A stretch of 64,000 nucleotides of DNA from Zygnema cylindricum (Eukaryota; Streptophyta; Zygnematophyceae; Zygnematales; Zygnemataceae): contig JBBHKE010002722.1 in NCBI GenBank assembly GCA_037447655.1, positions 62,001-126,000 on the forward strand, given 5' to 3'. The notes beneath the pieces were generated by a model. That model was given only the letters and a program-made list of their open reading frames with translations, searched no databases and had not been told where the DNA came from. The position numbers were made by a program, and so were the translations under genes. The first letter of the stretch is position 1. Every line of letters starts with the position of its first letter. Positions 1 through 46,019 of this stretch are shown one piece after another.

Positions 1-1127
1 TCACAATCCAAGGTTTAGCAACAGCCTGAGAAAAGAAGGTTGCGCAACAATCCACTTGATAAGACGAGAGAAGAAGTGAAGGGAAACTGATAAGGCCTCG
101 GCGTGAGCCGTGTAGATTAAATTCCAAGACAGATTACAAAGAAATGTGAGTGTGAACTAGGCAGCAAAATGCTTAATGACAAGAAAAATAGTCACTAAAA
201 CTATCCTGACATTTTCACAAGAAAAATAATGAAAGCAAAGGTCAAATCTTCCAAAAGAATTCCTGTGCTCTTGATATTGTGAGCACATAATTCACCTAAA
301 TTTCACAAAGTACATAGTCTACAGCTGAGCGCCTAACCTACTGTAAACACATGCCTTCTATGTAGTCGTCTACGCCTAGTTTGGATTTTGGCCAATAAGC
401 TACTAGAATTCTATGCCTTGCATTACAAAATCTACAGTGTAAGGATAAAAACCCTTCCTACACAACATGTGAATGCGTGAGACCTCTAAGATTCCACGAC
501 TTAAAATGGACCAATCGCATCGTCGTGTGCAATTTGAATCTGAATCACCTGTTGGCCTACATCATTTGTGACCGTAGATGCGCCTTCGTCTTGGCATACT
601 TTTAAGTTGACGCTTCGATTCGCAAATAGTACGGACGACAACTCGAATTGGTTCGCAGATATCCTGGCCGACAACTTCATTTGGTTCGCGGAAATTACGG
701 CTCCTAAAGCATAGGCGTACGGGCTTCAATATGTTTGCAGGTTCCACAACGCTTGACGATTTCGCGTACAAAATCTTAATTGTCCGTCAGTTTCACGGCG
801 TCAACAAAAATCTGTACGGCCTTGTCACCACCGTAATATACCAGAATACAAGTTAGTGTGGCGTCGGTCTTCAAAGACCGTTTACATGCGATTTACATGC
901 AATTAAAATGTGGCGACGTGATGCCGCATGACAGTTGTCATGTATGTGACAAAAAAGATGGTAAACATGCAACACAATCAGGTGCAAGATAAAGGGTAAA
1001 GAAATAAGCAAGAAAATAATGAACATACTAGAAAATAAGTGAAATAAGTATGTACAAGCAACAAGCAACAAATACACGTATCACAAGAAAAATAAAGGTG
1101 GGATGAGAGAGGAAGCTAGGAGGCTCA
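1..1127 (-). repeat. 3' LTR of the methyltransferase Gypsy element (cut by window start)
   Basis: Bases 1-870 align with about 16,790-17,630, for example the shared stretch 'cggcgtgagccgtgtaga' and the block around 'ttagtgtggcgtc' at 853 and 17,605. On the minus strand the LTR would begin TGAGCC just below a G-rich polypurine tract, so the upper boundary is placed at 1127. The other end lies outside the window. Confidence 0.75.
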
Positions 1128-2234: not shown

Positions 2235-2597
2235 TGTTGTTTTGGGAAAGCTTTAGTCCTCTCTATGCTTCGAAATATGAGGAAGAGAGAGTTTCGAGAC
2301 TTAGAATGTTTTTCTGTAAGTTCGGTTCACTACGAACCACAACTGGTGTTACACCTACACATTGAGAAGTACACCGATAAAATACACTCTCGCAATACGC
2401 CACGTTATAAGGGAGAACGTATTTCGGAATATCCGTTTGTTGGTGTACGGATACACCTAAAGACCAAAATGACACTTGGCGGTTTACTTATGGATCTGAA
2501 TTTGATATGTGGGCGGTGGACAAAGACCGCCGACAAATGCTGGTCCGAGTGGATCATTTACACGATGATTCGACGTGGAATACGAAATCCTAAGTTG
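2235..2597 (+). repeat. Solo Copia LTR, left part
   Basis: Begins TGTTGTTTTGGGAAAGC right after the 5-bp target duplication AAAAT (2230-2234). It resembles the start of the Copia-1 LTR (TGTTGATTTTGGAAAGC). It continues at 7570 after Copia-1. The matching AAAAT is at 8046-8050. The total solo LTR is about 839 bp and lies inside the Gypsy integrase. Confidence 0.8.
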
Positions 2598-3563
2598 TGT
2601 TGTTCTACGACCAATAGAGCAAGGGAAACAACAATTGTAGTAGTAGAAGTAGGCATAATTCACTCACAAAAGCTGACCAAGAATCCTACGAAACAATTGA
2701 TTTCTACATCTCACTAAATCTGACACAACAATCCAAACAGCTTCGAACTATACCACAGTATAGAATATCACAAAGATTGACAACTTCCAAAGTTTCAGCC
2801 CAATTGATCCAACATACACCAAGATATACAACTCCGAAGTTTCCCAAAAACAATATGCAAATTACACAGTCTAGAAGTCCGGATACATCAAATGTTCTAA
2901 GTCCTTTGTCCTGTACTCGTAGTGAGTTTCTACTCCTAGTTGTCCTATTACATAATGGTGTACCTCTGATACAAATGCTCTTAAGAGATAGGTCTAAAAA
3001 CCAAACTGCCACTAAGGTCTAGGTACTCCTAATCGTGCTAAAGCTAATTCTGCCACTGTACAATCAATATTACTAAGAGATCAATACAAGTTATTGTCTA
3101 ATTACTTGCCGTCGGCTTAATTATTATTGTCTGGATGCGTCCATCCAAATGTTGCGAAAACACCTGCCAATAAAACACTTGTGATCCTTTTATGAATCTC
3201 GTCCATTGACTTGATTCATATCAACTGCAGCTGCGTTGTCCCGTTCCAAATCATATTCAACGTCACCGCAGCTTCATCGGAGTTGTGTTGTCTCGTACCG
3301 AATTATATCAAAAATAACAGCAGCTGCTTTGTCCCATGTGCGTCGCAGCTACTTTTGTCTCGTCTACGTCGAAGATGCTTTGCCCCATCTCCGCCGCGGC
3401 TGCTTTGTCTTGTGCAATGTGTGAAAGGCATATGTGGATGTCGGTGCCATTCCGAAATACTGGTTCTGTCCTTAAGTGACAAGGCGTGTCCTTTATGCTA
3501 TATTTTACTGTCTTTCTGCCGTCACACTAATTTACTGAGACTTAAAGCTTTCCCAAATCAACA
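2598..3563 (-). repeat. 3' LTR of Copia-1
   Basis: Pairs with 6652-7564 over its length, for example the 'gctttgtccca' and 'cttaaagcttt' blocks in both. It includes the first codons of gag, as in the 5' copy, and stops matching exactly where the primer-binding site begins in the 5' copy. Confidence 0.88.
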
Positions 3564-3744
3564 CTACCCTAATGCTTTAGACTCAGTGTATCAGCACAGC
3601 TGCTATGTCAAGAAGCGTAGATGCGTTGTTGAACTAGCGCAATATGTTAGAATAACACCGCAGCAAATTAGCTAGTTACCTAGTCCCACAGCATCCCAAT
3701 GTAGGACTAGCGCAGCATGGTAATATAGCAAAATAGTAACTCAG
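3564..3744 (-). other. Polypurine tract and short tandem duplication between pol and 3' LTR
   Basis: On the minus strand a purine-rich stretch (ATTAGGGTAG) sits directly before the 3' LTR. Above it a segment of about 73 bp is duplicated: 'agctagttacctagtcccac' occurs near 3670 and again near 3743, so the pol tail is repeated once. Confidence 0.6.
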
Positions 3745-4520
3745 CTAGTTACCTAGTCCCACTGCATCCCTGCAATACTCCAGCTTAGGAGCTGGAAGAG
3801 CTTGAGTGAGCATATCAGCAATCATTTTTGCATCTGGCAGATAGCACAATTTAATTACCCGGGAAAACATTTTTTCTCTTACAAAGTGTAATCTTACATC
3901 CATGTGCTTACTCTTGAAGTGGTGACTCGGGTTCGAGGCAATGGCAATGGAAGCCTGGTTGTCACACCAGATCACATGTGGACCAACTTGCATGTATCCC
4001 AATTCTTGCAACATATATTTTACCCATATGATTTTTTTGAGGGTCGAGCTTACTACCATGTATTATGACTCCATTGTCAATTGTGCCCTGACTTATTGAA
4101 GTTTGCTGCTCCTACAGCAAGTCCCGTTCCCAATTTGCAGAACGAATCCCGTGGTGGATTTCCGGCTTGGTATGTCGCCATAGCTTGCATCACTCCATGT
4201 TTGCAACTTTACTACGCCTCTGCCTAGTGTGAGTTTGAGGTCTTTGGTTCCTGTCAAATGTCTTCACACTCTCTTTGCTGCATCACGGTCAGATTTTCCA
4301 GGATTTTCTAAACTTCTGCTCAGTACCCCAACTGCTGCGGCATCATCAGGACGGGTACAGTTCATGAAATATATTAAACTTCCCACTATTTGTCATAATG
4401 TATTATTGTCATAAGATCATCCTCCCTTGACTCTAAATACTCACTGCCAATCACACCCGGTTTTGTCTGTTCTCCCTCTAACTTTTACCACTCCATTGGA
4501 GTTACACACCTTTTTGCCCC
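3745..4520 (-). pseudogene. Copia-1 RNase H and RT tail (broken)
   Basis: The clear open part (3745-4059) carries IWCDNQASIAIASNPSHHF followed by K-x-KHMDVRLHFVRE and the terminal MLTQALPAPK, the standard Copia RNase H end. Upstream, in other frames, fragments such as SDASYGD and FVLQIGNGTCC are readable. RNase H would remove the RNA template during reverse transcription. Several frame changes show it is not functional. Confidence 0.8.
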
Positions 4521-4880
4521 CTACATTCCATACTTATTTAGCATGTTTCCAATATCCTTTTTTTTAGTCAATTTTATTAATCTCTTATTTCTATCTCTTT
4601 CTACCTGAATACCCAAAATATATTTCGTCTCACTGAGGTATTTCATCTTGAATCGTGAATTTAAGGCAGCTTTGATTTTGTTGATTTCAGCCATTGATTT
4701 GCTAATTAATAGTAGATCATCTACATACACCGCTATATACACGATCACATCCGCGCCTTTTAGAACGTAAACAGAATAATCAGAGCTTATCTTTTGAAAT
4801 CCTAGGCTAGATAAAAATTCGTCAAGCTTCAGATTCCATTGCCTAGGGGCCTGTTTTAGGCCGTACAGAGATTTTAACAA
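4521..4880 (-). pseudogene. Copia-1 reverse transcriptase, C-terminal half
   Basis: Open for 119 residues: KSLYGLKQAPRQWNLKLDEF near the start, then the catalytic YVDD in VYVDDLLLISKS, then KYILGIQVERDRNKR. The RT palm is intact here, but the N-terminal fingers (WVFKVK and KTAFLHG motifs seen in Copia-2) are absent. The sequence jumps from the middle of integrase straight into this segment, so an internal deletion removed roughly 1 kb. Confidence 0.85.
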
Positions 4881-4895
4881 TTTGCATACTAAGTG

Positions 4896-5159
4896 CTATT
4901 TTCTTGGCAGACCATGTAGTTTCTCCACCCATACTTTGTAGTGTTGGAAGTGGGTGAAGACTTCACTTTTTTCCCTCATGAATGAGACTTTAGTAAACCT
5001 TGAAAAATCATTTGTAAACGTAACCATATACATCATCCCCTTGGCAGATGGTACCTTTGAAGGGCCGAAAACATTAGAATGAATTAGTTGCAAAAGTTTA
5101 GTGGACCGGTGTTTGGATTCCTGAGGAGGAAACGGTAATCTGTGTATTTTTCCTAGTGG
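4896..5159 (-). pseudogene. Copia-1 integrase core fragment
   Basis: Carries LIHSNVFGPSKV, where the first catalytic Asp (HSDV in Copia-2) is replaced by Asn, then YMVTFTNDFSRFTKVSFM and HYKVWVEKLHGLP. The reading stops there and RT follows directly, so the second Asp and the Glu of the DDE triad are deleted. Confidence 0.8.
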
Positions 5160-5831
5160 TCATCTGCGTATTTTTCCTAGTGCACAACCATCAGACGTTT
5201 TAGCTGACTGATGTGAAAGAGCGACTCCTTCTAATTTACCAGCATGTACCATTTTTTTCAAACTGTCATAGTTCACTTGGCCTAACCTCTTATGCCACAG
5301 CTCAATTGAAGATAATGCACCGGAATACAAAACATCATTTTTTTTATTATCGAGCATATCCATTCGATACATTTTGCTAGCATCTCTAGTGCCTGTAACC
5401 GCAATCTTTCTATTCTTGCTAACAACTTGCCTACCATGTTTCAAATTGACCTCGAACCCTTTACTTTCTACCAAAGAAGTTGAAAACATTTTTTTCTTCA
5501 GATCTAGGACAAATAGAACATTGTGAAGAGTTCTCTCAACTGCCTTTCCTTTAATTTCAACTAGCAAGGAGACATCACCTACAGAACGTGTCTGTACACT
5601 CATACCACAGGCAGAGTAAATATTTTTCTCTGGTGTGGATTTCAAATTTTTGAAAATTGCCTTGTTCCAGCACATGTGTGCCGACGCTCCTGTATCCATT
5701 ATCCATCTAATGTCTTTTGCACCCTCCATTGTTGCTGCCATAGCAAATAAATCCTCGTCTTTCTCCTTCAAGAGTGTCAGATATTCGTCCTGGTAAGATG
5801 AAGATGCAAAAATGGTGCATTTCCTAGACAT
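5160..5831 (-). pseudogene. Copia-1 protease and pre-integrase domain
   Basis: 223 residues. WIMDTGASAHMC is the aspartic protease active site (DTGA) typical of Ty1/Copia polyproteins, where the protease would cut Gag-Pol. ELWHKRLGQVNYDSLKKMV is the pre-integrase zinc region, with CALGK at the end in place of the usual CxxCxxGK. The frame is open, but the flanking gag and integrase are broken. Confidence 0.85.
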
Positions 5832-6379
5832 GTAGATCTTGTGAAGCCTTGATTAAACCGGCTCTATTGCCATGCAGGCCTATACAATCATGTTTCGTTA
5901 GCTCTCTTAAGCTTAGGACAAAACTTATATCCATGACCTTTTTCATTAGAATAAAAACAAGCATTGAAAGACTATCTAATTCCTCTCTGATTAAGTTGTT
6001 TAAACTGATTTTGGTTCTGATTAAATTGATTTCTCTGCTAATTAAACTATGTGTGTTTGTCAAAATCTGCATTAAATGCCTCTACTTGCTTTTCTCCACT
6101 AATAATTTTAGAATCAGCCTCTTTCTCTATTATCAAATTAATAGCTAACTGCAAAGTCCAACTGGCTTTATTTTTTATTTCAGAGTATCAAACGTTGCTT
6201 TCATAGTATTAGGAAGACCTTGCATTAGTAATGTAGCCTGCTGAAACCGAGGGAAAAATCCACCTGCAAAAGCATGAGAGTCTTTTAGAATTCGAAACTT
6301 ATTACCATATTCGGCCATTCTGCCTCCTAGTATTTATAGTCCCAAATTTGGCCAGCCAAAAATAATTATTGTTGGACAT

Positions 6380-6711
6380 TAGCCTTTTCGTAATCATCTT
6401 TGAGAGACTTCCACATATCGATCGCCTTTTTTATTTTTATCCGAGACATAGTCAATTCTTCTGAGATACAGAATTTCAGAATAGATCGAGCTTGCGAATT
6501 TTTCTTCGATTACGACGAATCCGATTCCGCCAATGAACCATCCAAAATATCCAAGAGATTAATATTTTCGAAGTGTGTTTCCACTATATCCGCCCAATAA
6601 ACATATTTTTCCCACGAGAAGATAGGAATTCTTGATGACAAGCCCATAACTTGTTGTTCCACGACCACTTGAGCCAGAGGAAGCAACAACAATAGTAATA
6701 GAAGTAGACAT
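6380..6711 (-). pseudogene. Copia-1 gag N-terminus
   Basis: The minus-strand ATG at 6711-6709 (MSTSITIVV) lies inside the 5' LTR. After a one-base frame change the reading continues VVVEQQVMGLSSRIPIF across the LTR end and primer-binding site, then YVYWADIVETHFENINLLDILDGSLAE. It closely matches the Copia-2 gag start. Later gag (6.38-5.84 kb) is heavily disrupted. Confidence 0.75.
6641..6650 (-). other. Copia-1 primer-binding site (half tRNA-iMet type)
   Basis: Directly after the LTR end (...GAACAACA) the minus strand reads AGTTATGGGC. Nine of these bases match the reverse complement of the plant initiator tRNA anticodon region. The same position and sequence occur in Copia-2 and Copia-3. 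Confidence 0.65.
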
Positions 6712-7564
6712 AATTCACTCACAGAAGCTGACTAAGAATAGTACTAAACAGTTGTTTTCTACAACTCATTAAATCTGACTCAACGATCCAAACAGCTTCT
6801 TACTATACCACAGTATAGAATTTGACAAAGATTGACAACTCCCACAGTTTTAGCCAAATTGATCTATTACACAACAAGATATGCAACTCAAAAGTTTCCC
6901 AAAAACGGTTTGCAAATTACAGAGTCTGGAACTCCAGATACATCAAATGTTATAAGTCCCAAGTCTTATAATCGTAGTGAGTTTCTACTAGTATTTGTCA
7001 TATTACATAGTGTTGTACCTCCGATACAAATGTTCTTGACAGATATGTCCAAAAACCAAACTGCCACTAAGGTATTAGTACTCCCAATCACACAAGCTAA
7101 TTTTGCCACTGTACAATGAATATTACTGAGAGATCAATACAAGAGATTGTACAATTACTTGCCGCGGGCTTAATTACTATTGTCCGGATGCGTCCATCCA
7201 GATATTGTGAAAACACATGCCACTAAATCACTTGTGATCCTTTTATTAATCTTGTCCATTGAATTGATTTATATCAACCGCAACTGCGTTGTCCCGTTCC
7301 AAATCATATTCAACGTCGCCACAGCTTCCTCGCAACTGCGTTGTCCCGTACGAAATCATATCAAAAATAAACGCACCAGCTTTGTCCCATCTGTGTCGCA
7401 GTTGCTTTGTCCCGTTCAATGTGTGATAGACATATGTGGATGTCGGTGCCATTCCAAAATACTTGTTCTGTACTTCATTGACAACGCGTGTCCTTTATGC
7501 TATATTTTACTGTCTTTTGCCATCACACTAATTTACTAAGACTTAAAGCTTTCCAAAATCAACA
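6652..7564 (-). repeat. 5' LTR of Copia-1
   Basis: The upper end CAACA (7560-7564) abuts the AGTTG target duplication, and the lower end is the complement of GAACAACA at 6659-6652. It pairs with 2598-3563. Length is 913 bp. Confidence 0.88.
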
Positions 7565-7569
7565 AGTTG

Positions 7570-8045
7570 TTGTAAATATTCGCTTGATTTGGTCTTTGCC
7601 TTTATTTGATTAGTTAATTAGTGTAGAATACTTTTTGGTTGGCATTCCTTGTCATTTCGGGTATACGCATAGTATTACATGTGTTGGGTAGTGAAGCTTT
7701 AATGTATATGAGTAGGACTCAGTCATTTTTGGAGTTATGAACACTTTGTAGGCAAAAATTGTTCAACATGTTTTTGGCAGTTTTTGGCATTTTCATCTGT
7801 GAATATCTCACAGATTTGTGGGTTGAATTACTTCTAATTTTGTGTGTGTGTGTGTTTATCCTGATATTATCTACATTGTGGTAGATTTGCAAAACTATTG
7901 TGTCTTTGGTTTGTGTTTTATCAACTGTTGAAGTTGTTGTATTTTCAAACTCGTTTTTGTGAGAGTTTCTTGCTTAATTTGGTTTTGAGATGGCTACACC
8001 GGCATCCTCATCGTCTTCGGTTCTGACTCTTGTCTCAGAACAACA
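7570..8045 (+). repeat. Solo Copia LTR, right part, carrying gag start codons
   Basis: Continues the LTR of 2235-2597. Near its end it encodes MATPASSSSSVLTLVSEQQ from an ATG at 7990 and finishes GAACAACA at 8045, followed by the AAAAT target duplication. It therefore shows independently that gag begins inside the LTR in this family. A short (TG)n run lies near 7,842. Confidence 0.8.
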
Positions 8046-8050
8046 AAAAT

Positions 8051-8500
8051 AACCCTTTTATTGGTAGTGGTTGGAGAGTAGTCTGCCGGTTGCTAAAAGA
8101 GGAACGCAAACGATCACATATTGCACACTTGTGCAATACCGATGCGACATCAGATTGCATCCCATACCACCAATAGCGTTTCTGCAGCAGGCTTTAGGTG
8201 CGTTTGGTCCCATAGTGACCAAGGTCGGTGTGAATTTGTTCGATCAGCGAAAGACGCTACGTAAGACGAGGCACGTGTCTTTGACTACCATCCGCTAACA
8301 ATCGAAATAGTGATCCACCTAACAAAAGATATTTTTTAGCTCTTTCCATCTCTCTTTCCTCCTTCTCAAATGTAGTGCCCGGTCGGAAAGTTTGTGAGGA
8401 GAGGAAAAGAATTAGTGCTCCGTCCCGCCATGGATCTGGGGCAGAACAAGAGTTGGGCAACGAGGCTAAGGAATGTGTAATATAAAACCCTGCTAACATT
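8051..8500 (-). pseudogene. Gypsy integrase H2C2 zinc domain and linker
   Basis: The minus strand reads IEQIHTDLGHYGTKRT, then LLQKRYWWYGMQSD, then HKCAICDRLR: the His-His-Cys-Cys zinc-binding motif at the integrase N-terminus. It ends LPIKGLF at the AAAAT target site and resumes at 2229. The linker toward RNase H holds a Glu/Arg-rich stretch (8.26-8.50 kb). One stop falls inside the zinc domain. Confidence 0.75.
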
Positions 8501-8559
8501 CTCGCTACGTCATCGTCATCAAAGACCTGCCGGACCCCGTTTCCGTTGTTTGTGGTCTA

Positions 8560-8882
8560 TGGCAGAGGATTTTTGGATATGTCGTCTACATTCAGACTAA
8601 GTAATCGTGGGCGGTGAATTATTTCCACATCGTATTTTTGTAAAATTAATGCCCATCGTGCTAATTTTCCTGCCATTTTATCGTTCGTCATTAGCCAATG
8701 TAAGGGTTGGAGGTCGGTTAGAAGTGTAAACCGTTTTGGTTAAAGGTAGTGACGAAAGTATACAATACCCCAAACAGCAGCCAAACATTCTCCTTCATAA
8801 CTATTGTAATTCGACTCTACACGATTATTACTTTTGCTTGCGTAAGTGACCACGTATTCTTCTTCTGTTAGTTCTCGGTGAG
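8560..8882 (-). pseudogene. Gypsy RNase H
   Basis: The minus strand reads YVVTYASKSNNRVESNYNSY, then EGECLAAVWGIVYFRHYL, a stop, then FTLLTDLQPLHWLM and LARWALILQKYDVEIIHRP. This is the usual Ty3/Gypsy RNase H ending, with the E-G/L-E-x-A and TD-x-x-x-L motifs. One in-frame stop is present. Confidence 0.8.
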
Positions 8883-10225
8883 TTAGATGGCCGCGATGTC
8901 AGGCTTTCCAAAGTCAATTTGTATACAAAAAGGTAATTTGTGATTAGGAGGTCGTTGGATGAGAGCACTAGAGAGGGCATACTTCAATTTATAAAAGGCT
9001 AAAATATGATCAGGTCCCCATACGAAAGGAACTTCTCTCTTGAGAAAATCGTTCAATGGTGAAGCGATAGTGCTGAAACTAGGAACAAACCTGTGATAAT
9101 AATTAGCTAATCCTATGAAGGCTCGAAGACTTGTGAGATCAATGGGGGCTGGCAGTTTGCTGACAGCCTCGGTTTTTGCCTCAAGTGGTGTGATTTTTCT
9201 GGAGGAAATGAAATGTCCAAGGTAAAGCACACCCTCGGACCCGAAAGTACATTTAGCTGGATGATATTTTAATCGGTCTTTTTTTTTTATTCAGCTAGGA
9301 CCTATTCGATATGAGCTGCGTGATCCTCAATTGTGGCAAATGCGATAATCAGGTTATCAATATAACATGGGGCAAACTTGCAACCACCTAAAACTGAATC
9401 CTTCACTTTTTGAAAAATTGCGGGGGCGTTCTTAAGTCCAAAAGGCATCACGGACCATTCCCAACGACCATCACTACCCCAAAAGGCGGTTTTATGCCTA
9501 TCTTTCTCCTCTGTTTCAATTTGGTTAAAACCTTGTCCCAAATCAAGAATACTCAAATATTCAGCGCCTCCTACATGATCAAATATTTCTTCGGCCAATG
9601 GCATCGGATGTCGATCTTGTATAGTTATAGCATTGAGTTCACGGTAATCGCCGCACATTCGATGATCAGTAAAGTTTCCTTAGGCATCTTTTTTTTGGGG
9701 CATGACAGTGGGTGCTGCAAAAGTAGAGTCCGACCGATAAATGAGGCCGGTTTGCTCCAATTCAGCGCAACGTTGGTCCACTAATTCCCATTCTGTTTCG
9801 GATAAACGGTGTTTTGGCTTAGAAATGGGACGATTGTCTTCGAGATCTATAAGCATTTTATAGGTGGTATGGCGACCAAGATTGTTCGTAGAGAAAGCAA
9901 AAGCGTCGATATTCCAGAGAATCACTTCGTTCAATAGATCATGTTCAGATTGAGAGAGATTAGAGCCAATTTTCCATTTGGGAGTTTTTGAACCTTTAAT
10001 CGTCATCGCTTCCATGGCTTGTGCAAAAGGTAGCTGTTCATCCGCGATAAGTGACTGACCGAATGAGTAAACAACCGCTAATTCCTGTAAGCAATTTGTC
10101 CAATGGTGCCAGCTGCGAGTAGGAAAGGCTGCGGTCCAGTAAGGAGGCGTTGAAATATGACTAGAGGGAGCGAATTGGGTAGCAGTATATACTGGAATGG
10201 ACCATGACATGTGACTAGGATTCAA
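8883..10225 (-). pseudogene. Gypsy reverse transcriptase
   Basis: Three open stretches (10225-9680, 9658-9302, 9230-8883). Motifs in order: RPISKPKHRLSETEWELVD, QTGLIYRSDSTFAAP, MPQKKDA followed by a stop, CGDYRELNAIT, YLSILDLGQGFNQIE, MPFGLKNAPAIFQ, then YIDNLIIAF where YIDD is expected, then the thumb YLGHFISS and LRAFIGLANYYHRFVP. The second catalytic Asp of the YxDD box is Asn, so the enzyme is dead as well as frameshifted. The methyltransferase lies immediately N-terminal. Confidence 0.88.
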
Positions 10226-10367
10226 AAAGTTGTAGATTGTGACATCTGGAGAAGGTTTTATAGGGGATGGAAAGAGGAAAAAATGAGAAGGTGTCTCTTT
10301 AAGGATGATAAGAGATCGTGTCGGTATGTGTTAAGAAATTTATGATGCACCCCCCCCCCCCAGCTGG
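10226..10367 (-). other. Linker between methyltransferase and RT with a C-run
   Basis: A run of ten or more Cs near 10,350 marks a likely slippage point: the reading frame changes between the end of the methyltransferase-like segment and the pre-RT segment here. Confidence 0.5.
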
Positions 10368-11375
10368 TTAAGACGGATGGGTTTGTGCGTAACAAACTGC
10401 TGCAAATCCAAGGCCTAAGACAAATGAGAAGGATTGAAGGTCCATGACACAACCTAAAAAGATGCAACGCTGCCGTTCTGTGAGACCATGGGCAACTGTA
10501 GTGTTGGGAAAGAAATGCATAAGGTGTTCCCATTCTGTGGATGTGGGCTCATCTAGGCCGCTTATGTGAATATTTTTGAGCAAGCCGGGCCCATCGCCAA
10601 AGAAAGCGTGAGAGTGTGGAAAAGACACTAGAGTGGGGAGAACTTTGAATGGTTGACCCGAGAGGTTAACGTTGTAATTCTGCAGGTGATCAGGCTGAAG
10701 ATATGTTTGGACTCTATAAAAAGCAAAAGTGGGGTCTGAATATCTGTAAAAGGGGGTCTAACTGAAATATTTCCTTCTCTAAGGCGACCAATATCAATCA
10801 AGTTGGTCTATTTATATCGGACCCGATGGGCTAAGGACCCGTGACGAGCGACATCAATGATAAGAGGAGGACCAATTAATGCTTCTATCCTCTTAAAATC
10901 AGCTAACACTGTAGGTCGGCGATCGTTATAGGCTGCCACGTTTTCCAAAATATATCTTAATGGTCGATCTAAAGATTGCAGAAAATGCATGATACGAAGT
11001 AATTCAAAGAATAATTTAGTGCGAGGATGAGCTAAGCCGAGACCTTTGTCTGCTCGTGACATTCCTTGACACTCCCAACCAGCAAAGAGAAGATCGATTG
11101 GTTCCACCTCCAGAAGGTGTTGATTGCCTATCAAACGACTATCTTAAGGTAAGAATGTATACATATGAGCAAAGGCAGATTTGGGGAAAAGATGTGCATA
11201 TTAGATGTGTATATTGTCCGTGTAACAGATTACAGTGATGTGTTTGGGCTTTCCGAGCTAAAGGGTCAATGTCAACTGAGTAGTAGTGTTTGATAAGTAA
11301 TCTGTTACGAAGGCATGAGAGTAGAGAGGTACCTATGCCTGTGAATCGATCTAAAAAAACCAGACCATCTTGATG
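10368..11375 (-). pseudogene. C5 cytosine DNA methyltransferase domain inside Gypsy pol
   Basis: The enzyme family transfers a methyl group from S-adenosylmethionine to cytosine C5. Motifs in order on the minus strand: motif I FLDRFTGIGTSLL (near 11,355) and VDIDPLARKAQ (motif II); motif IV DLLFAGWECQGMS (near 11,090-11,055), where the catalytic Cys is kept but the preceding Pro is Glu; HPRTKLFFELLRI; motif VI ILENVAAY (near 10,945); IDVARHGSLAHRVRY (motif VIII region); a C-terminal part DEPTSTEWEHLMHFF, RQRCIFLG, FAAVC (motifs IX-X, to 10,368). A frameshift separates motifs I and IV, and the Trp expected after RVRYK is a stop. VARxxSxAHRxRY and RQxxLG resemble the DNMT3 branch more than DNMT1, but this is a weak call. 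Between protease and RT, it must have been made as part of Gag-Pol. Confidence 0.82.
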
Positions 11376-11599
11376 GGGTTTGAGCTGAATTGGTTTCCAA
11401 TTAATGGGAAGAAAACCGTAAGGATGAGGAGGAGGTGGAACTCGCGATAAAGGAATTTGAAGTGTGTGTTTGTAAATATGATCAAACTCGCGAGAATCAA
11501 TAATAAAACCTGGATTATTGAAAAGTTCAGGCAAAGAGGGATTGTCGGGCAGAATTTCCTCTGCGGATAGAGAATGAAAAATTTCAAATCCTACCAAAT

Positions 11600-12136
11600 T
11601 TCCGGAATAAGCAGGTACAGATTCGGCAGCTTGAGCCATAATGGGTATGGGTTGTCGTGCGGAAATTAGAGGGAGACAGATTTTCTTTTCCAGATAATTG
11701 GTAGGACGGTAGGAAAAAGTTTGATCGTACATATCAACGGCGCCCCCCACTCTGAAAAGCACATCTTGCCCCAATAAACACTCATAATTGCTACATTTGG
11801 TGACTAACGCGTGAGCAGGGACTTCCGCAAAATCAGAATCAGGGTGGATCTTTTGTAATGCCCAGAACTGGTTCCGTTGTTCTCGCTGACATGAGTAAAC
11901 GTATGTTGGTGGACTGAAGTTTATCAGCTGTCCGACCTAGTTTCAGTGCAAAAGATGACCCCAAAATAACTGGTTTTGCACCGGTGTATATAAGTGGTAA
12001 TGACGGTGTGACACCATTGATTGAAAATGCACCCTTTCCCATTATCCAAAAAACTCATGTCTGGGTCGAGTGAACTACGCTCTTCGGCAGAGATAGGCCT
12101 AAGAGCTTCCAAATTACAATTCATTTGCAAAACTTG
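11600..12136 (-). pseudogene. Gypsy retropepsin-like protease
   Basis: The minus strand reads INGVTPSLPLIYTGAKPVIL, then GSSFALKLG: the aspartic protease pattern with LIYTGA where LIDTGA is expected, so the catalytic Asp is lost. Downstream come TTEPVLGITKDP and LLGQDVLFRVGGAVDMYD, the usual C-terminal half of a retropepsin. It follows the gag zinc knuckles and precedes the methyltransferase. Confidence 0.7.
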
Positions 12137-13114
12137 TTATGTTGCAAATGGGACGGATGAGACGGTGGGAGAGTCAAAAATCATCGTGGATAAAATGGAC
12201 AATCTTTCGTTAATCTTATGACTGTCCTGAATAGAGCGGTCAAGAATGATGAGTGCTTCCGCCGTGATGGTGGAAGCAGTTTCGGGCAAGTTAGTTACTG
12301 TCTCTTTAGAGAACGATAATGGAAGACGCGTGATAGACTGTTTACCCTCGCGATTGTGATCAACTGTTCCCATTTCAAACGTGGTTGCCCGTTTTTGGAT
12401 GGTTGAATCAAGTAAAACTCGACCAGCTAGAGTGGGAAGGTGGACAACTGTACGAGCCATAACAGTCAGGTGAGATGGCAGTTTCATTTGAGCCATAAGG
12501 GATGCAAACTGGTCTTTGATCATGGCACCCATATGCGTTTGCATTTCCTCTCTCTCTTTTTCTCTCTGAGACACTTTAGGTGGAGAGTTTTTTTCTCGCT
12601 CTTTAACCGGTAAGACTAGTTTGGCAGATCTAGCCGGGATTCCACCATTTCGGATCTGATTTTGATATGAAAATTTAGGGTTTTTTATATGACAATGATA
12701 CACAAAATGGCCGGTCTGTTTGCATTGTTTACAGGTCGCAGATTTATTCGGACACATCCGAGCATCATGCCCGATTTTGCCACATCGGACACAAATGCGA
12801 TTGAATGGTTGATTTGGTCGGGTTCCCATGGGTGGGACCCTTGGTGGCCGATTATTTGGCCCCAAGTTACGAGGATTTGGTGAATTGAAAGGGTTAGGTT
12901 CTTTTGAGGGGCTTTTGGTCGATCGTGGGCCTCCCACCAACAATTCGTCGTCTCGAATTGTACGGCGTATTGAGCTGCATGGTCAAAAGTAAATTTGAGA
13001 CCGTATGTTTGGTTAAGATGGCTTTGAATAAATTTCCTTGACTGGAAAGGAAATTGTCCAACAACTTCTGGGCAACTTCAGCATCTGATATTAGATCGGG
13101 TAACGCTTCCCGTA
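12137..13114 (-). pseudogene. Gypsy gag C-terminal half with two zinc knuckles
   Basis: CVRCGKIGHDARMC (near 12,793) and CKQCKQTGHFVYHC (near 12,740) are paired CCHC knuckles that bind RNA in nucleocapsid. Upstream the capsid-like text REALPDLISDAEVAQKLLDN leads, after a frame change, to FIQSHLNQTYGLKF and AAQYAVQFE. It joins the N-terminal half at 14,631 when the solo LTR is removed (METL plus REALPD). Open from 12943 to 12137. Confidence 0.82.
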
Positions 13115-13119
13115 AGGTC

Positions 13120-14625
13120 TGTTGTCTTTGGTCTAAAATAGACCGCAGAAGCCACCCAAACTATCATGCAAAAAGCTAAGCGAAGCTAGGCCAATGAACA
13201 ATCATTTGAAATGCATCCTCCATTTAATATACAACAACTAAGGTTTGATGGTAAAATCAACATAAACAAACCTTAGGACAACATCTAAGGTTTGATGGAA
13301 TAATCAACATAAGCAAACCCTAGGACAAATGCATAAATAATGCATATCAAACAAACATAAATAACATAAATTAATAATGACAAAAAGAGTCCAATCTCAC
13401 ATAAACATTAAATAAACAAAAGTATATCAATAAACATATTACTCAAATGCATGACCTAATCGGCAACCCTAAAAGTTTACATCTTCGGTCCCTACTTTTC
13501 ATGCTAAGCATTGATGATTTTCCTAATGAAGCTCAAATCTATATATACACTTGTGAGCTGTTAACAAATCACTAAGTGTCAAAATAACCAACGTAAATTA
13601 CGTAACTGTCTTTAAATCAAACTAATCGTAAGCGTACACCTGAGAGTCAAGCAATCGTGAGCGTACGCTTGTCTACAAGTACGATATTTTTCACACACAA
13701 ATTAAATTGTCGAAACCCTAATTAACCACTTAAATATAAACGTCATAATCAACACTAATTAATAATACACATAAGACAAAACAATGTTGTTTCAAATATT
13801 ACACCGACGCGTCCGCAAAATACGCGTCATAAGCGACAACTTGCTTAGTCACTTGCAGATAAATCCACGTAGTGAACCGACATCGCATATGTACGGTCCA
13901 CCTAATAATACGTCATTAAAGATAATGAGATCCCTTGAAAATATCGGCGGACGTCGTCCGCCCTCCACGTGTACCACGAATCACTTGTCGAAATTAAACC
14001 GTACCTTCCAAAAATTTACAGGTACACAAAATCTCACAAAATCTTATGCTGACTCATGCTGAGTCACTCAACGAATCTCCTCAAATTTTGTCAAACAATC
14101 CGGAACGTCAAAAATAAATATCGTGTGATTGACGCGATTTCGCGTCACCACTACATAAAAAATCTCGGCGGCCTATATCCGCCGTCCGTCGCTCTTAATC
14201 GGCACCCTTGATGTCGCGCCGCGTGGTCATAAAAAAAAACCACTTGTCGAAACCTCGTCAAACTATCCAAATTAGTCCGTACCGTTACTTTTGTTCCTCG
14301 TCATAAATGCGCCTGCCAAAAATAAGTACACCTGTCCCCAAAAAGATTCTATGTACCGGCGGCGTCCTTTTTATATATCCCACGTGTCGCATTATGAACT
14401 TTACGTGCGACGTACCATTTTATCTTCGTCGATTATCTCACGTCGGATCGCTTCGCGATCCGCCGTCCATTTCCTCTCACATTTCGCGCCACTCAATTAC
14501 TCCATTAATTTTACTCGTACATTTAATTCCCCCATCGGAAAATCCTTTCGAACCACCACATTATATCAGGTAAATACATACGCATGCGCACGCATGTACG
14601 AAACTACATCTTCCAAAAAACAACA
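13120..14625. repeat. 1.5-kb solo LTR in the Gypsy gag
   Basis: Begins TGTTGTC, ends CAACA, and is flanked by a perfect AGGTC duplication (13115-13119 and 14626-14630). Removing it restores the gag reading frame. It has no coding potential. A segment near 14,440-14,480 with the palindrome-like 'gatcgcttcgcgatccg' resembles 23,518-23,550 in the 3' region of the chromovirus, inverted, so it may be a minus-strand solo LTR related to that element. A solo LTR is the simplest reading; a large non-autonomous element is the alternative. Confidence 0.75.
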
Positions 14626-14630
14626 AGGTC

Positions 14631-15403
14631 TCCATGCGGGCTCGTAAAGGGGGGGCACTTTCGCCCGGTTTACCCTCAAAATTCATTAATTCCTTTACTT
14701 TGTCAGGATTTTCCATGCGATACTCCTTTTGTAGCAAATTAACCATTACGGTGAGAGGATCTCGTAATGGTGCGGTCATCCTAGGACGAGACAGGACAAC
14801 GGCTCGGGCTTCAATGGCATATTGATAGGGAACTTTTGCAGCAGCAGGATAAAGAACATTGCCTTGTGCATCTAAGACCTCGCGAATAGCAGCTTCATAA
14901 GGAATTTCTCCTTGACATATGACTTCAGCCGCACCACCAAACTGTGGGGAATATTCGGTCATCGCAAGTATGCCATTATACTTGCCGGAATATAAGGTAA
15001 GGGCGGAACCGCGAAGGTAACGCACCAGCAAGGAAAAAGCGACACGCATGTCAAATCTATCTTAAAAACGCAAAGCTAGATCTCGCATTTCAATATCGAA
15101 TAACATTCAAAAATGAGATAAACTCATAGTATCCTTCATTCCGCAAAAGCATAATTGAAGTTTACCGGGAGTGCTCTCCGATGTGGAGGCCATCAAAAGA
15201 GATGAGTTAGCCGAATTCAAAGCTTGAATCGGTGCTAACGGAGACCAAAAAGAAAGAAAATCTGTATCAGGTTCCCTTTCGTTATCAACCTCTTCCACAA
15301 ATAGCGTGGATAGAATGGATGACAAAGATGACATGGTGGTTAAATCTGAACGAGTAGCGGACGCTCTAGATTCAATTAAAGGACTTAACGTCAAAGGAAC
15401 CAA
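14631..15403 (-). pseudogene. Gypsy gag N-terminal half
   Basis: Starts at an ATG at 15403 (MVPLTLSPLIESRASATRSD) and runs in one frame through two stops near 15.1-15.05 kb into RVAFSLLVRYLRGSALTLYS, a typical retrotransposon gag helix (RYLRGSA-LTLY), and RDPLTVMVNLLQKEYRMENP. It ends at METL against the solo LTR. Gag would form the particle. Confidence 0.75.
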
Positions 15404-15499
15404 ATTTGATTAATTTGATTGATTAAAAAATTGTTAAACAGAAAGTTCCACCACTACGTGTAGATCCATATGAGTAGTCAAGATTATCCCAATTAGTGG

Positions 15500-17690
15500 G
15501 CATAAAAATGACTGAGATAAAAAACTAATGCGCTAATGGATACGCCCTATACGAGGTGCAGCAAATGCCAAACCATACCACACACGTTGGCAACAATCTC
15601 AAAAAGTCTCTAACATGGCCTCGATGGCCAGATCTAGTCAAGAAGTCGCTTTTACCAAAACCTCTACCCCGCAAACGAGTGGGCAAGGCCGAAGGGCCAG
15701 ATCTATAAAGGCACAAATATTGCTAAACAAGCACCCGAAGGTGCAGATCAAGCTCCACAGGCAAAAAATAGTTCTATCCAAGGCCACCAACGGCCAGATC
15801 TAACCAGAAAATTCCACGCCAAACATAGATCAAGAAAAACATAAGGCCACTCACGGCCAAATGGCAAGCATGGAATGCGTGGACAATGCACATGCTCAAT
15901 ACAATTATATCCGATTGGACCCAATCCACTCACGTACCCTCTAAACGATCAACAACTATCCTAACACGCGCCTGCACCCGCAACGCATCGTAAACTTACA
16001 AACCACTCTTAGCAATCTGGTGATTGCCAAGGGTGAACTGCGGTTGTTCGCTCCAACCAGAGTTTTGCAGAGCTCCCGAAAACGAATCAGCTCCACTATC
16101 TCCTCTCCTTGGTGAGGTATGTCAAAATGTGAAGAATCGATGCCTCTGATCAACAAAGAGCAAGACAAACCAAATACCTAAGTTAGTGTAGAAATTCTTG
16201 GCCGAAAATTGGCAAAGGAGATAATTATGTCTGCTACCAAACAAACAATAATTAAAAATGCAAAACTAGTTATAGATTTATTTTTTCTTAGTTATTTTTT
16301 TCGAACAAATAATTACAACTTAGCAGAAAATTTAAATTTGTTAGGATCTATTATCAAATTGCAGACACACAAAGAAATACTGTCAAATTTAAATCAAATA
16401 AAATCGAGAAAAACTAACAATTTTTAATTGCATAAAATATAGAATAATTGTCAATGTAAAATTGCACAAAATAGACAACGTCAAATCGCAGAAACTAGAG
16501 CAAGACTGACAATGTCAAATTGCACGAAATAGAAAGTGCTGAAAATTTCAAGAGAACAAGAATATTAAGCCAACGGATAGCCACTATGCTCATTGGTCAG
16601 TTTATATTCATTACAAGAGTTCCATTAATAAAAACATAACCTAATTGTCACAACACATACTGAAAATGTAGAAAACTGCGAGCAAATCTTAGATAACCAG
16701 ATTTAGCCACACACAAAACAAATAAAAAAAGCCAACCCTAATCCACTATCACCAAGTAAACCACAAAAGCAAACCCAAAACAGTCCAATCACAATCCAAG
16801 GTTCAACAACAACCTGAGAGAGAAGGCTGAGCAACAATCCACTCGATGGGACGCGAGAAGAAATGAAGGGAAATCGGTTAGGCATCGGCGTGAGCCGTGT
16901 AGACTAAATTGCAATGCAGATTACAAAGAAAGGTGAGTGTGAGCTAGGCAGCAGAACGCTTAATAACAAAATAAATAGTCACTAAAACTGTCCAGACAAT
17001 TTCACAAGAAAAGATTAAAAACAAAGGTCAAATCTTCTAAAAAGAATTCTTGTGCTCTTGAAATTGTGAGCACATAATTCACCTAAAATTCACTGAATAC
17101 AAAGGCTACTCTTGAGCGTCTACCCTACTGTAAATAAGTGCGTTCTATGTAGTCGTCTGCGCCTAGTTTGGATTCTGGCGAATAGACGACCATAATCGTA
17201 TGCCTTGCATTACAAAATCTACAACCTAAGGATAAAAACCCTTCCTACGCTACATGTGAATGCGTGAGACCTCCAAGGGTCCACGACTTAAAGTTAACCA
17301 ATTGCGTCGTCGTGTGCAGAATGAATCTGAATCGTCCGTTCGTCTGCATCTTTTGTGGACATGGATTCGCATTCGCGTCAATAGTGGTACATGTGAATTC
17401 TGCAGTTTGACATTTCGCATCACGAATCGTACGGACGACAACTTAAACTGGTTCGCGGAAATTCCGGTCGGCAAATTAAGTCGTATCGCGAAATTCTGGC
17501 GAGTGTCGACTTCGCGTACGGAATCGAAATCGTCCGCGGGTTTCACGGCGTCTGACTTGAATTTGTACGGCCTTGTCGTCACGGAAACATACCCACGTTT
17601 AAATTAGTGTGGCGTCCCATTTGAAGGACCATTTCCATGCGATTAAATATAATTCACTGCGCCGACGTGATACGGCATGACAATGAAACT
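15500..17690 (-). repeat. 5' LTR and leader of the methyltransferase Gypsy element
   Basis: 16,790-17,630 matches bases 1-870. The upper end at about 17,690 is lost against a DNA-element remnant. The lower boundary is not precisely visible, and no primer-binding site can be named with confidence between the gag ATG (15,403) and about 15,550. Within it, 15,620-15,860 contains spaced copies of GGCCAGATC. An A/T-rich stretch (16,210-16,430) has no convincing gene. Confidence 0.65.
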
Positions 17691-20159: not shown

Positions 20160-21070
20160 AAACACAACAATATGATTTTGTAACTGACATAAATACTTCT
20201 GATGCTGTTGATAAAGATTTGATTTTTGAATTTCAAGATGTTTTCCTAAGTGATTTACCCTCAAGAAAGGCCACCTTCCCGAGATGTGGAACATGTTATT
20301 AACCTTGAACATAGATGTAATCCTCATGTCACAGGAATTTATAAGCACAATTTCTTTGAGCAGGAGGAGTTAAAGAAACAAATATGAGCTTTTGGAGAAA
20401 GGACATATTCAGCCGAGCAAATCACCGTACGGAGCACCAGTTCTCTTTGTCAAAAAGAAGGACGGAACATTGAGAATGTGTGTCGACTATCGTAGTCTAA
20501 ACAAGATTCCGGCGAAGGATAAGTATCAGTTACCTTTAATTTCTGATTTGATACATCGTTTGAAGGGTGCTAAATTATTTTCTTTGATTGATCTGCTTAG
20601 TGGCTTTAATCAGGTGCCAATTAGAACCGAAGATGTTGACAAAACTACGTTTAGAACTAGAGTTGGTCATTTTGAATGGATAGTGATGGCATTTGGTTTG
20701 ACGAATGCACCGTCTACTTATCAAAGATTAATAAACCAAACCTTTTCAGATTATATAGATAAGTTTGTTCAGGTGTTTATAGATGATATTCTAATTTACA
20801 GCAAAACTAAATAACAACATGTAATGCATTTAACAAAAGTGTTGGAAAGGTTAAGGGAAAGAAAACTATATGGAAAATTGTCAAAATCCAGTTTTCTTAA
20901 AAGTGAACAATTATTTTTAGGACATATAGTTAGTGGGGAAGGTGTTAAAACAGATCCATCCAAAATTATGCAATCCAAAATTGGAAGCAACCCACTAATG
21001 TCACAGAAGTTAGATCATTTTTGGGATTGGCCACGTATTACAAGAAATTTATCAGAAACTTCAGTATGAT
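20160..21070 (+). pseudogene. Chromovirus reverse transcriptase
   Basis: Motifs: LIFEFQDVFLSDLPS; after a frameshift [92 protein letters not shown] with an intact catalytic IDD followed by a stop at about 20,812; then HLTKVLERLRERKLYGKLSK and [19 protein letters not shown]. The longest open piece is 140 residues from 20,392. The palm is intact but the protein is broken by stops and frameshifts. Confidence 0.88.
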
Positions 21071-21600
21071 CGCCTCACCTTTGACGATTTACTTCAAGAG
21101 AAGGAGACGTTTCTGTAGGGAGCTAATCAGGAGAGAGCATTTGTGGAACTAAAAGGGAAGTTGACTTATGCCCCTACACTGGTGTATCATGACCCTGCTA
21201 GGGAATTTAAAGTTCTGATCACTACAGATGCATTTGATAAAGGTCTAGGTGCAGTCATAAGTCAAAAAGTTAGTAAACACTTTCATCCCATTGTTTTTTA
21301 GTCCTGAAAATTCAAGGATGCTGAAAGGAACTACATAGCACAGGAAAAAAATTACTTGCAATTGTACATGCATCGGTGAAATGGCGTTGTTATTTACATT
21401 ATAAATAATTTACAGTTCATTGTGATAATAATGCACTTTCTTATTTACAAAGATTAAGTGATGCACAGATTATGACTGGCAGACAGGTTAGGTGGATGCA
21501 GAAATTGGCATATTTCAAATTTCATGTCAAACATATTCCTGAAAGACAAATGTAGTCGCGGATCCTTTAAGCAGATGTTTTGAAATAATTGTTATGGTTC
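21020..21600 (+). pseudogene. Chromovirus RNase H
   Basis: The three frames together read [20 protein letters not shown], then [57 protein letters not shown] and WMQKLAYFKFHVKHIPER. Several stops and small indels occur. Confidence 0.75.
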
Positions 21601-32157: not shown

Positions 32158-33312
32158 TAACGGTTTAAGTTGACATGTAAAGAGTTTAGTGTTGCACGGA
32201 TTCCAGGGTTGAGTATTTGCAATAAAAGAGATTATTTCTCCCCTTATCAGTTCGGAGTTGCAACCAGGGGGGGTTGTGAGGTCGTGGTCCATGGGATCCG
32301 GGCTTTGCTCGATGCCCATCCGGATTGGTTAGTCCTCCAGGTGGATGTTTCTAATGCCTGTAATACAGTAAATCGGAATGCCATTTTTTCAGAGCTTATG
32401 GCCGCACCTTCCCTGATTGCCCAGATATTTCCTTTTGTGAGGGCCTTATATTCACTGAGCAGTAGCCTCTCTTTCTCCACGGATGATGGTTTGGTCCCAC
32501 TTTCCTCCATGACTGGCACCCGTCAGGGCGATCCTCTTGGGGGCCCTTTGTTTGCTCTAGCCCATTACCGTGCCCTCCGAGCTTCAGCAGTTGCTTATCC
32601 TTCTTGCCTCTTCCCTTCTGTTGCGGATGACACACACATTATTGGTCCTTCAGACCAAGTTATACCGGCCTATAACTATTTTAAGGCTCGCTTGGCCGAA
32701 CTCAATCTTTCTGTCCAGCCATCAAAGTGTGTTGTTTGGTCCCCACTTCTTATTCCTCTTTCTTTCACTCCCCCTTCTGGTTTTCTGACTCCTCTTCCTA
32801 CCGAAGGCATTCGGGTGTTAGGTTGCCCGCTTGGTTCCGATCCCTACGTCACAAAATTCCTCGATTCCGCTATTCAGACAGATTTGTCCCACGTGAATGA
32901 CCTTCCTCACCTCTCTGATCCCCAGGTGGCCTTTGCTCTTCTGACGCGCTGTTTCCCGGCCCGACCCTCCTACCTTACTCGCACTTCCCCTCCCACCCCA
33001 TCCTTTGTGCCCTCACTTTCCGCATTCGATGATCGTCTTATGGATGTCCTCCACACTTTGTTGGGCCGTGGAGCTTTTGATCGCGAGTCTGGGCCCGCGG
33101 CACGCATCCAAGCCTCTCTTCCAGTCTCGGCCGGCGGTTTGGGTTTACTCTCGACGGCGCGTGTTGCTCCAGCCGCCTGTTTGGGAAGTTGGTGCCTTGC
33201 TGCTTCCACTATTGTCTCTCGTTTTTGTTGGAATTTATAAATCTTATTTCTGTTTATAGGGGTAAAAATAACTTGGGAAGTTGGTGCCTTGCTGCTTCCA
33301 CTATTGTCTCTC
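32158..33312 (+). pseudogene. Non-LTR retrotransposon reverse transcriptase (5' part)
   Basis: Open from ATG 32,170 for 356 residues; likely 5'-truncated because upstream RT motifs are missing. Motifs: FGVATRGGCEVVVHGIRALL, LVLQVDVSNACNTVNR (motif A Asp), GTRQGDPLGGPLFALAHY (motif B), SVADDTHIIGP (catalytic ADD), VQPSKCVVWSP, GIRVLGCPLGSDPYV, and a C-terminal AGGLGLLSTARVAPAA. GC-rich codon use differs from the A/T-rich surroundings. The frame continues into the 3' part at 39,443 once Copia-2 is removed: ...TIVSRF joins VAGDTPIL. The RT itself looks intact here. Confidence 0.88.
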
Positions 33313-35010: not shown

Positions 35011-35164
35011 GACAGGTTTATACAGGCCAGGTTGGCAATAGAGCCAGTATCACAGAGGTTTTTTTGGAAATCCTTCCCGTGGAAATGCTCTTTTTTCAGC
35101 TTCTGCAACTGATGCAGATGAGTCTCTCATCTTCAATGAGCAAGAGGAGGCGGATTTATTTGCT

Positions 35165-36800
35165 ATGGCGGCTTCCATGGAGGGTCCAAAGGATGCAGGA
35201 TGGATCATGGACACGGGAGCGTTTGCCCACATGTGTCGGAACAAGGCGGCTTTTACGAATCTGCAGCAAACATCTCCAAAGTGTATCTATTATGCTTGCG
35301 GCATGAGTGTTCAAACCTCAGCTCAGGGTGATGTATCATTGATGGTAGGTGTGGGGGGAAAGTCGGTAGAGAGAACCCTTCAGAATGTTTTGTATGTTCC
35401 ATATTTTAAGAAAAATCTTTTTTCTACATCATTAGTGGAGAGCAAAGGCTTTGAAGTTGTTTTGAAAGGAGGGAGACAGGTTGTTAGCAAGAAAGGGAAA
35501 GTTGCAGTAACAGGAACTAGAGATCCTAGCAAAATGTATCGGATGGACATGGCTGAATATAAAGGAAATGATGCTCTCTACTCCAGTGTCGAATCTAATA
35601 ATGAGTTGTGGCATAAGAGATTAGGACACATGAATTATGATAGTCTAAAGAAAATGGTGAACTCGGGAAAAGTTGATGGAGTTTCTCTCACATCTCATCC
35701 TATAAAAACTTGTGATGGTTGTTCACTTGGCAAGATTCACAAATTGCCATTTCCACAGGAAACAGACCATAGATCGGAAAAAGTTCTGCAGCTTATCCAT
35801 TCTGATGTTCTCGGTCCGTCACAAGTGGCTTCGGCTGGAGGTGTCCACTATATGGTCACATTCACAGATGACTACTCGAGGTACACCAAAGTTTACTTCA
35901 TGCAACATAAAAGTGAAGTGTTTACTCACTTCAAACACTACAAAGCGTGGGCGGAAAAGCTTCATGGGGTTCCAATATTGGTGCTAAGATCGGACAACAG
36001 GGGAGAATACACATCGAAGGAATTCGAAGAATTTCTCCTTCAAGAAGGTATCAGTCACAACCTTACAGTTCCATATACACCGGAACAAAATGGTGTTTCT
36101 GAGAGATTAAATAGGACATTAACAAAGAGTGCTTGGTCCATGCTTGCAGATAAAGGGCTATATTTGAAATTCTTGGCTGAAGCGCTTAATTGTCCTGTTT
36201 ATATTAAAAATAGAATTGCTTCTAGGTCTGTTACCACCACACCTTATGAGCTTTGGACAGGGGAAAAATCTGATGTTAGTCACTTTAAGATCTTTGGTAG
36301 CAAGAGTTTTATTTTAGATACTTCACATTTTAGATGGAAAATGGAGCATAAAGGCTTACCTGGGATTTTCATGGTGTATGATGATAATGCGAAATGATAT
36401 AGAGTTTTTGTACTTGAGAAACAAAAAGTGATTGTTTCTAGAAATATCCAGATTAAAGATGAACAAGATTCGGTGGACCTGTTTAAAGTGCCAGATCAAT
36501 TGGCAAAAGAAAAGCAAGAATATGTCATTTTTCACCATACGCAGCGAGTTTACTTTCCACCGGCAAGTGGGACACCACTTCCTTCAGTTCCTCTAGTGCC
36601 TTTAGAGGATGCTTCACCAAGAGCTACACCTCAGTGGAAGGAACTACTACACATTCTGTACTAGATGAAGTTACGGTTCAAACTAAACAGAGAAATCAGA
36701 GGTTGTCGACAATCTCAGCCTTAGAATTTCCGGGGGAAAAGAGATCTAGCAGCCGTTTGCAAGCTAGCTCTCACTTTGTTTTTTCTGCAGCTACAAAGGA
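35165..36800 (+). pseudogene. Copia-2 protease and integrase
   Basis: 410 open residues. WIMDTGAFAHMC is the protease active site; ELWHKRLGHMNYDSLKKMV and CDGCSLGK are the pre-integrase zinc motif; LIHSDVLGPSQV, VTFTDDYSRYTKVYF, LRSDNRGEYTSKEFEEFL and TPEQNGVSERLNRTL carry the D, D and E residues of the integrase core. After a stop at 36,395, the linker continues with a Ser/Pro-rich stretch to about 36,800. Confidence 0.9.
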
Positions 36801-45340: not shown

Positions 45341-45364
45341 GTAAAGTAGAATAAAAACCAAAAC

Positions 45365-45399
<35 letters not shown>

Positions 45400-45400
45400 A
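45365..45400. repeat. Poly-A run
   Basis: About 32 As on the plus strand, within the putative intron upstream of the coding start. Confidence 0.85.
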
Positions 45401-45491
45401 AAAACAACAATATTGTCAACAAATTAAAAAACATATCATAATAAATAATACATACAATAACATATATAATACGATATATAATATAATATAC

Positions 45492-45858: not shown

Positions 45859-45869
45859 CTTCCCAGGAA

Positions 45870-45993
<124 letters not shown>

Positions 45994-46019
45994 CAAAAAC
46001 GATTAAAAACTAAGACTAT

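Follow-up and report, generated by a model that had tools for sequence, protein, structure and literature searches.

Sequence analysis confirmed a Dnmt3-type cytosine-5 DNA methyltransferase (MTase) inside a Ty3/Gypsy retrotransposon in a 64,000-nucleotide stretch of Zygnema cylindricum DNA (the window; bases 62001-126000 of contig C2048). The element is long, lies on the minus strand from position 17682 down beyond the window start, thus continuing upstream of window position 1, and is collinear in tblastn with an intact relative, C1344, whose 2395-codon frame (P0001) was used as the query. We consider it fairly probable that the window element is old, dead and derived from an autonomous Ty3/Gypsy element of the KnitGypsy-Dnmt3 kind, in which the MTase would act on new element DNA and a junction between two internal repeats (B1/A2) would be used to rebuild the element ends.

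MTase-bearing Gypsy elements are an already known class, first described in Klebsormidium as KnitGypsy-Dnmt3 (PMC5890265). What is new here is that split repeats occur together with TG...CA ends, a DDE integrase and, in half of the copies with both ends read, target duplications of exactly 4 bp; also new are an EC variant of the active site, a PHD finger resembling histone readers, and a second branch of domain order that includes Haematococcus. No published report of the EC motif, of elements of this type with a PHD finger, of the 4-bp duplications or of the second domain order turned up in a survey covering mainly titles and the starts of abstracts and little of the subscription literature. 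By pairing split repeats with a DDE integrase, these elements connect two retroelement classes normally held separate, and through the second domain order the kind now reaches at least one chlorophyte alga. Furthermore, because this one genome holds more than 100 MTase matches, a young intact copy, two families differing in their active site, and copies both with and without terminal repeats, it makes testable the question of what a parasite gains from an enzyme that hosts use to silence it.

Methyltransferase domain and intact copies

The preliminary description had placed a C5-MTase at 10368-11375, with its motifs in the right order on the minus strand, and these coordinates were right. The DNA_methylase hidden Markov model search that it named as a check gave a PF00145 match on 10808-11143 (-) alone (E 5.9e-8; 32.9 bits against a cut-off of 22), and tblastn placed the domain at 11381-10353 in three reading pieces. 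Motifs I (FTGIGTS), IV (GWECQGMS), VI (LENVAAY) and VIII (AHRVR) are followed by the C-terminal block, the normal order for the Dnmt3 family, and DNMT3 was the best match (the solved-structure matches listed were DNMT3, HhaI, HaeIII and 4dkj). A DRM identity was rejected, as motif I precedes motifs IV, VI and VIII with no permuted order and the match was weaker; a bacterial or viral-type MTase was likewise rejected on its weaker matches. A scan of IMG/VR, in which frames were scored, gave 25 loci with 26-46% matches covering parts of the MTase.

A first search of the 352.8-Mb genome scored 123 MTase matches among 782 candidates; such counts are lower bounds, and one match is not always one separate copy. 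An intact copy in the same genome, which the preliminary description had suggested looking for, was found in C1344. This copy retains the MTase in a single stop-to-stop frame of 2395 codons and has identical A repeats. Along P0001 the domains are CCHC at 449-464 and protease at ~708-760 (both weak), MTase at 942-1078 and on, reverse transcriptase (RT) at 1496-1647, RNase H at 1712-1841, integrase (rve) at 1962-2128 and a PHD finger at 2338-2382 (E 1.5e-9). The protease match (Pfam Asp_protease_2, E 0.012) is below cut-off in P0001 and stronger in the relative P0003 (1.3e-5). RT/RNase H of C1344 matched Ty3 RT/RNase H (4ol8) with E 2.3e-80, and this Ty3-type RT and the order RT-RNase H-integrase are those of Ty3/Gypsy. 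The earlier placement of the MTase between protease and RT of one Gypsy element is borne out by the collinear alignment with C1344. The PHD-like finger predicted at the C-terminus is intact in C1344 and decayed in the window copy, where two of its cysteines are lost.

Two families were distinguished in the genome, A (window, C1344) and B (C544, C1374), and two of the seven family B loci (L003 and L018) are only 49-61% alike. When MTase pieces were aligned across loci, none was obtained for L007. The dN/dS of the MTase was 0.06-0.39 and that of RT 0.08-0.23 among the pairs listed, with pairs of saturated or tiny dS left out and with L005/L014 and L006/L009, which overlap, hence counted twice. 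By this measure the MTase is under purifying selection, and its dN/dS range argues for a working enzyme. From the copies compared, a Dnmt3-type MTase is a regular and selected part of Pol in this lineage.

Split repeats, element ends and target duplications

A plain long terminal repeat (LTR) element was rejected once the split A and B repeats had been mapped: in place of the two plain LTRs of Ty3/Gypsy elements, copies have the layout A1-ORF-B1-A2-B2 or A-ORF-B (ORF, open reading frame). In C1344, A1 (85514-86444) is followed by the frame to 94718, a G-run, B1 (94737-94978), two bases, A2 (94981-95911) and B2 (95912-96154); A1 and A2 are identical, and B1 and B2 are 99.6% identical. The window copy has the same plan on the minus strand. 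Its A1 (16563-17682), the 5' element end with the outer end TGTCATGCCG at 17682, is 77.2% identical to A2 over 1176 columns, and its B1 (935-1133), immediately after the G-run (polypurine tract), is 88.4% identical to B2 over 199 bases. A2 runs from 933 to -225 (window part 1-933), extending 226 bases beyond the window start, and B2, the partner of B1, lies outside the window at -226 to -424 (contig C2048 61774-61576). A layout of A1, then B1-A2-B2, has also been described for VIPER (PMC6681497).

Repeat statistics were taken from 15 copies (seven family A, eight family B) chosen for strong MTase matches. Split repeats were present in six of the seven family A copies (window, C1344, C829, C2602, C449 and C1407, the last with no 5' A repeat found) and in the family B copies C1042, C2458, C1870 and C2234, and in all ten the inner B1/A2 junction reads CA-NN-TG. 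The element ends are TGTC...GACA (TG...CA), with GACA decayed to AACA in the window. For seven of the 12 family B-type 3' stretches fetched, the element end was unmatched. Exact 4-bp target duplications flank five of the ten copies with both ends read (C1344 TTGG, C829 AAGG, C2602 CCCC, C2234 TTGT and C507 ACGT), against a chance expectation of 1/256 per copy; C1042, with a degenerate 5' end, and C2458, with an N run at its 5' end, were left out of this count. These duplications, taken with the element ends, indicate that a DDE integrase would insert DNA starting at A and ending at B. Where DIRS elements have a tyrosine recombinase, the intact copy C1344 has the rve integrase. Judged on these features, the lineage has a Ty3-type RT/RNase H, a DDE integrase with a C-terminal PHD finger, and split repeats in the plan A1-ORF-G-run-B1-NN-A2-B2.

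Relatives, proposed replication and competing explanations

Protein searches returned 46 relatives for family A, 22 for family B and 32 for the domain profile at 1e-8, including Haematococcus lacustris, Closterium sp. NIES-54 and Klebsormidium nitens KFL_009030040 (P0094, partial). Trees were built from element proteins alone, using 48 of the 53 proteins with both domains after exclusion of the near-copies P0025, P0029, P0030, P0031 and P0048. The MTase tree split 11 proteins from 37 with support 99/94, and the RT tree gave the same split with support 99. The smaller group includes Klebsormidium nitens, Closterium NIES-54 and both families of this genome, in agreement with the suggested kinship to charophyte elements, and in both trees it joins the Klebsormidium protein to the two families described here, which have a Dnmt3-type MTase in Gypsy Pol and DIRS-like repeats. 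Taken by itself, this grouping makes a streptophyte alga the probable host. The MTase precedes RT in 11/11 members of this group and follows it in 42/42 others (the 37 in the trees plus the five near-copies), including Haematococcus. The suggestion that the domain order marks a distinct lineage therefore held in part: the order separates the group from all others, but it is not unique to this genome, being common to all 11 members, Klebsormidium and Closterium included. The two trees shared 26 of 45 bipartitions (Mantel r 0.64; 0/2000 permutations), and this congruence indicates that the MTase domain is passed on along with the rest of the element.

KnitGypsy-Dnmt3 of Klebsormidium nitens (de Mendoza et al. 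2018, PMC5890265), with its Dnmt3 in a Gypsy Pol and its DIRS-like repeats (Fig. 4c legend), resembles the present elements in being intron-free and multi-copy, and P0094 likewise has the MTase before RT. P0094 differs in that its motif IV reads PC and its motif VI is altered (EH), whereas this genome has family A with EC and family B with PC. The PHD finger, the 4-bp duplications and the copies without terminal repeats go unmentioned in the available part of that paper and may not be true differences; P0094 ends before the PHD position, so its lack of a PHD finger may not be a real difference. SymbioDIRS-Dnmt3 shares a Dnmt3-type MTase in Pol and split repeats (A-ORF-B-A-B), but is a tyrosine recombinase DIRS element, unlike the present elements with their Ty3-type RT, DDE integrase and target duplications; DIRS elements with Dam-like MTases are described alongside it (PMC5890265), and a 2019 opinion places green algae among the carriers of Dam- or Dcm-type elements (PMC6338049). 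The Gypsy elements of the Haematococcus lacustris group (P0014 and 41 others) also combine Gypsy Pol with a Dnmt3-type MTase, mostly EC, but carry it between RT/RNase H and integrase. In chromoviruses (PMC3605345) the integrase likewise ends in a domain of chromatin-reader type, although in the present elements a PHD finger replaces the chromodomain and an MTase and split repeats are added.

In the replication route that we propose, the G-run before B1 is the likely plus-strand start. Ordinary reverse transcription from there would yield B-A LTRs, whereas genomic copies start with A and end with B. The B1/A2 junction (CGACA-NN-TGTCA) sets the right and left element ends side by side and could serve as an internal template for restoring the two of them while reverse transcription proceeds; end repair from an internal junction has been proposed for DIRS/PAT elements. 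The integrase would then insert DNA beginning at A and finishing at B, and A-ORF-B copies would be either products cut at both B/A junctions or B1 x B2 recombinants. The MTase, within the Pol complex, would put 5-methylcytosine on new double-stranded element DNA before or at integration, and the PHD finger, at the place of the chromovirus chromodomain, may help to select chromatin.

Several observations weigh against this account. Motif IV of Dnmt3-family MTases usually reads PC, as it does in 7/7 family B loci, but EC replaced it in 50 of 77 domains (a tally which, like those below, includes near-copies) and in 9/9 distinct family A loci read, of which one has a stop immediately upstream. No clear CpG depletion, as a sign of self-methylation, was found in the copies measured: three family A copies had observed/expected values of 0.88, 1.01 and 1.06, the window copy 0.91 and one family B copy 0.66, with 0.94 for the rest of the window and 0.69 for a nested MTase-free element. 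The sole member of the lineage to have been tested, KnitGypsy-Dnmt3, gave no methylation in yeast, a result its authors called inconclusive (PMC5890265). As for the repeats, neither A nor B was found in the family A copy C2577 with 2-kb flanks searched, and four of the eight family B copies (C1374, C544, C507 and C1920, or L009, L012, L035 and L043; C1920 was read at its 3' end) stop at GACA right after B, without a terminal repeat. Five of the ten copies with both ends read (C449, C1870, C1374, C544 and the window) have no exact duplication. Immediately behind A1, a tRNA-type primer site (TGG) was absent from all five family A copies read there. The mirror form A-B-A-ORF-B, with B before A1, occurred in 0/10 copies. 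Its absence disfavours a free circle with two equal junctions and weakens such a circle as the sole integration route; together with the family B copies lacking terminal repeats, it makes the proposed replication route tentative.

The EC motif could alternatively mean that these enzymes are non-catalytic, the MTase fold being retained to bind nucleic acid or to play a structural role within the RT complex. We regard this as decidedly unlikely, since the motif IV Cys is conserved in 76/77 domains, the motif VI Glu in 77/77 and the motif VIII AHR in at least 70/77; moreover, the best MTase tree has at least six EC/PC changes, which is odd for a one-way loss, although well-supported branches force only one (MTase tree) or three (RT tree). 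A host MTase gene that merely landed in one Gypsy copy and is now decaying would fit the broken state of the window copy, but such a chance insertion is hardly credible and was rejected given the 123 scored matches, the intact frame, the purifying selection, the same place in Pol in 11/11 relatives and the congruent trees. Whether the two domain orders arose by separate captures of Dnmt3 is a closer matter: the position in Pol differs without exception, and for dinoflagellate DIRS elements two acquisitions were inferred by the authors from two domain orders far apart on the RT tree (PMC5890265). We nevertheless hold this to be somewhat unlikely, as GW[E/P]CQ, the TAAPG block and the C-terminal PHD finger are common to both groups, which suggests one ancestor and one relocation of the MTase.

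A different target for the enzyme is also conceivable, in that the MTase, delivered with the integrase complex, might methylate the insertion site or host DNA and so tune silencing, with the PHD finger as a targeting module. Both domains do occur in one polyprotein, the closest solved structures to the C1344 finger being PHF12, KDM5-type Lid, BAZ2B, WSTF and PHF21A. Several PHD fingers of the PHF12/KDM5/BAZ2B-like kind read unmodified H3K4, and animal DNMT3 couples methylation with histone reading through its ADD domain. Downstream of the integrase, 36/42 proteins with the RT-MTase order and 4/11 with the MTase-RT order show a PHD pattern, several of the latter group being truncated. We judge this host-directed role unlikely all the same: a long distance separates the MTase from the PHD finger in Pol, and with a protease present the two probably end in different mature proteins. 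Action on new element DNA remains our preferred reading. A broader idea, which we put forward as speculative and improbable, is that split-repeat retroelements repeatedly recruit DNA MTases whatever their integration enzyme, as Dam-like MTases in DIRS, Dnmt3 in SymbioDIRS and Dnmt3 in the present Gypsy lineage would exemplify; the mark would serve a step special to this mode of replication, with EC as a fitted reactivity variant. If so, the methyl mark might set the true ends at A1 and B2 apart from the internal B1/A2 junction; alternatively, it might protect double-stranded DNA, perhaps in circular form, that persists for long before integrating.

The window copy and its surroundings

The remaining parts of the window copy were mapped on the minus strand mainly by tblastn. 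The gag region comprises an N-terminal part at 14624-15575 (P0001 residues 22-343) and a C-terminal part at 12032-13136 with a CCHC zinc knuckle (Pfam E 0.0034, below cut-off), and is followed by the aspartic protease region at 11830-12033 (P0001 705-772) and the MTase (10353-11381). Beyond the MTase lie a linker and the first part of RT at 9281-10369 (RVT_1 E 1.5e-18 within 9302-9679), the RT end, RNase H and integrase start at 8047-9284, the remainder of the integrase core at 1568-2233 (P0001 2034-2257), and the decayed PHD finger at 1194-1328, a position computed from P0001 2338-2382 within the tblastn stretch 1616-1155. As judged from its 26 in-frame stops (over 14 aligned, slightly overlapping segments), an insert in gag, an LTR element in the integrase and A repeats merely 77% identical, the window copy is dead and old.

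The gag insert is a nested solo-LTR-like sequence of ~1.5 kb at ~13140-14632, seen as a gap in the tblastn map, with TGTTG...CAACA ends and GACCT flanks read by eye and with approximate limits. The integrase is split by a nested plain-LTR element of 5.8 kb at ~2240-8046 (limits likewise approximate), whose LTR parts at 2598-3563 and 6652-7564 are 81% identical. Its target duplication is 5 bp (AAAAT), unlike the 4 bp of the MTase element that carries it, and the ends of the solo-LTR-like insert resemble its ends.

Elsewhere in the window, a second Gypsy-type RT stretch at 20386-21155 (+) was matched in tblastn by the RT part, not the MTase part, of P0001. Reading frames at 35042-36397 and 53056-56556 (+) and at 59223-61806 (-) appeared Copia-like by eye, and those at 32161-33240 and 39613-40461 (+) LINE-like. 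Finally, a long purine-rich, strand-biased stretch extends over 42000-46000, with GC skew up to 0.57 and AT skew up to 0.53.
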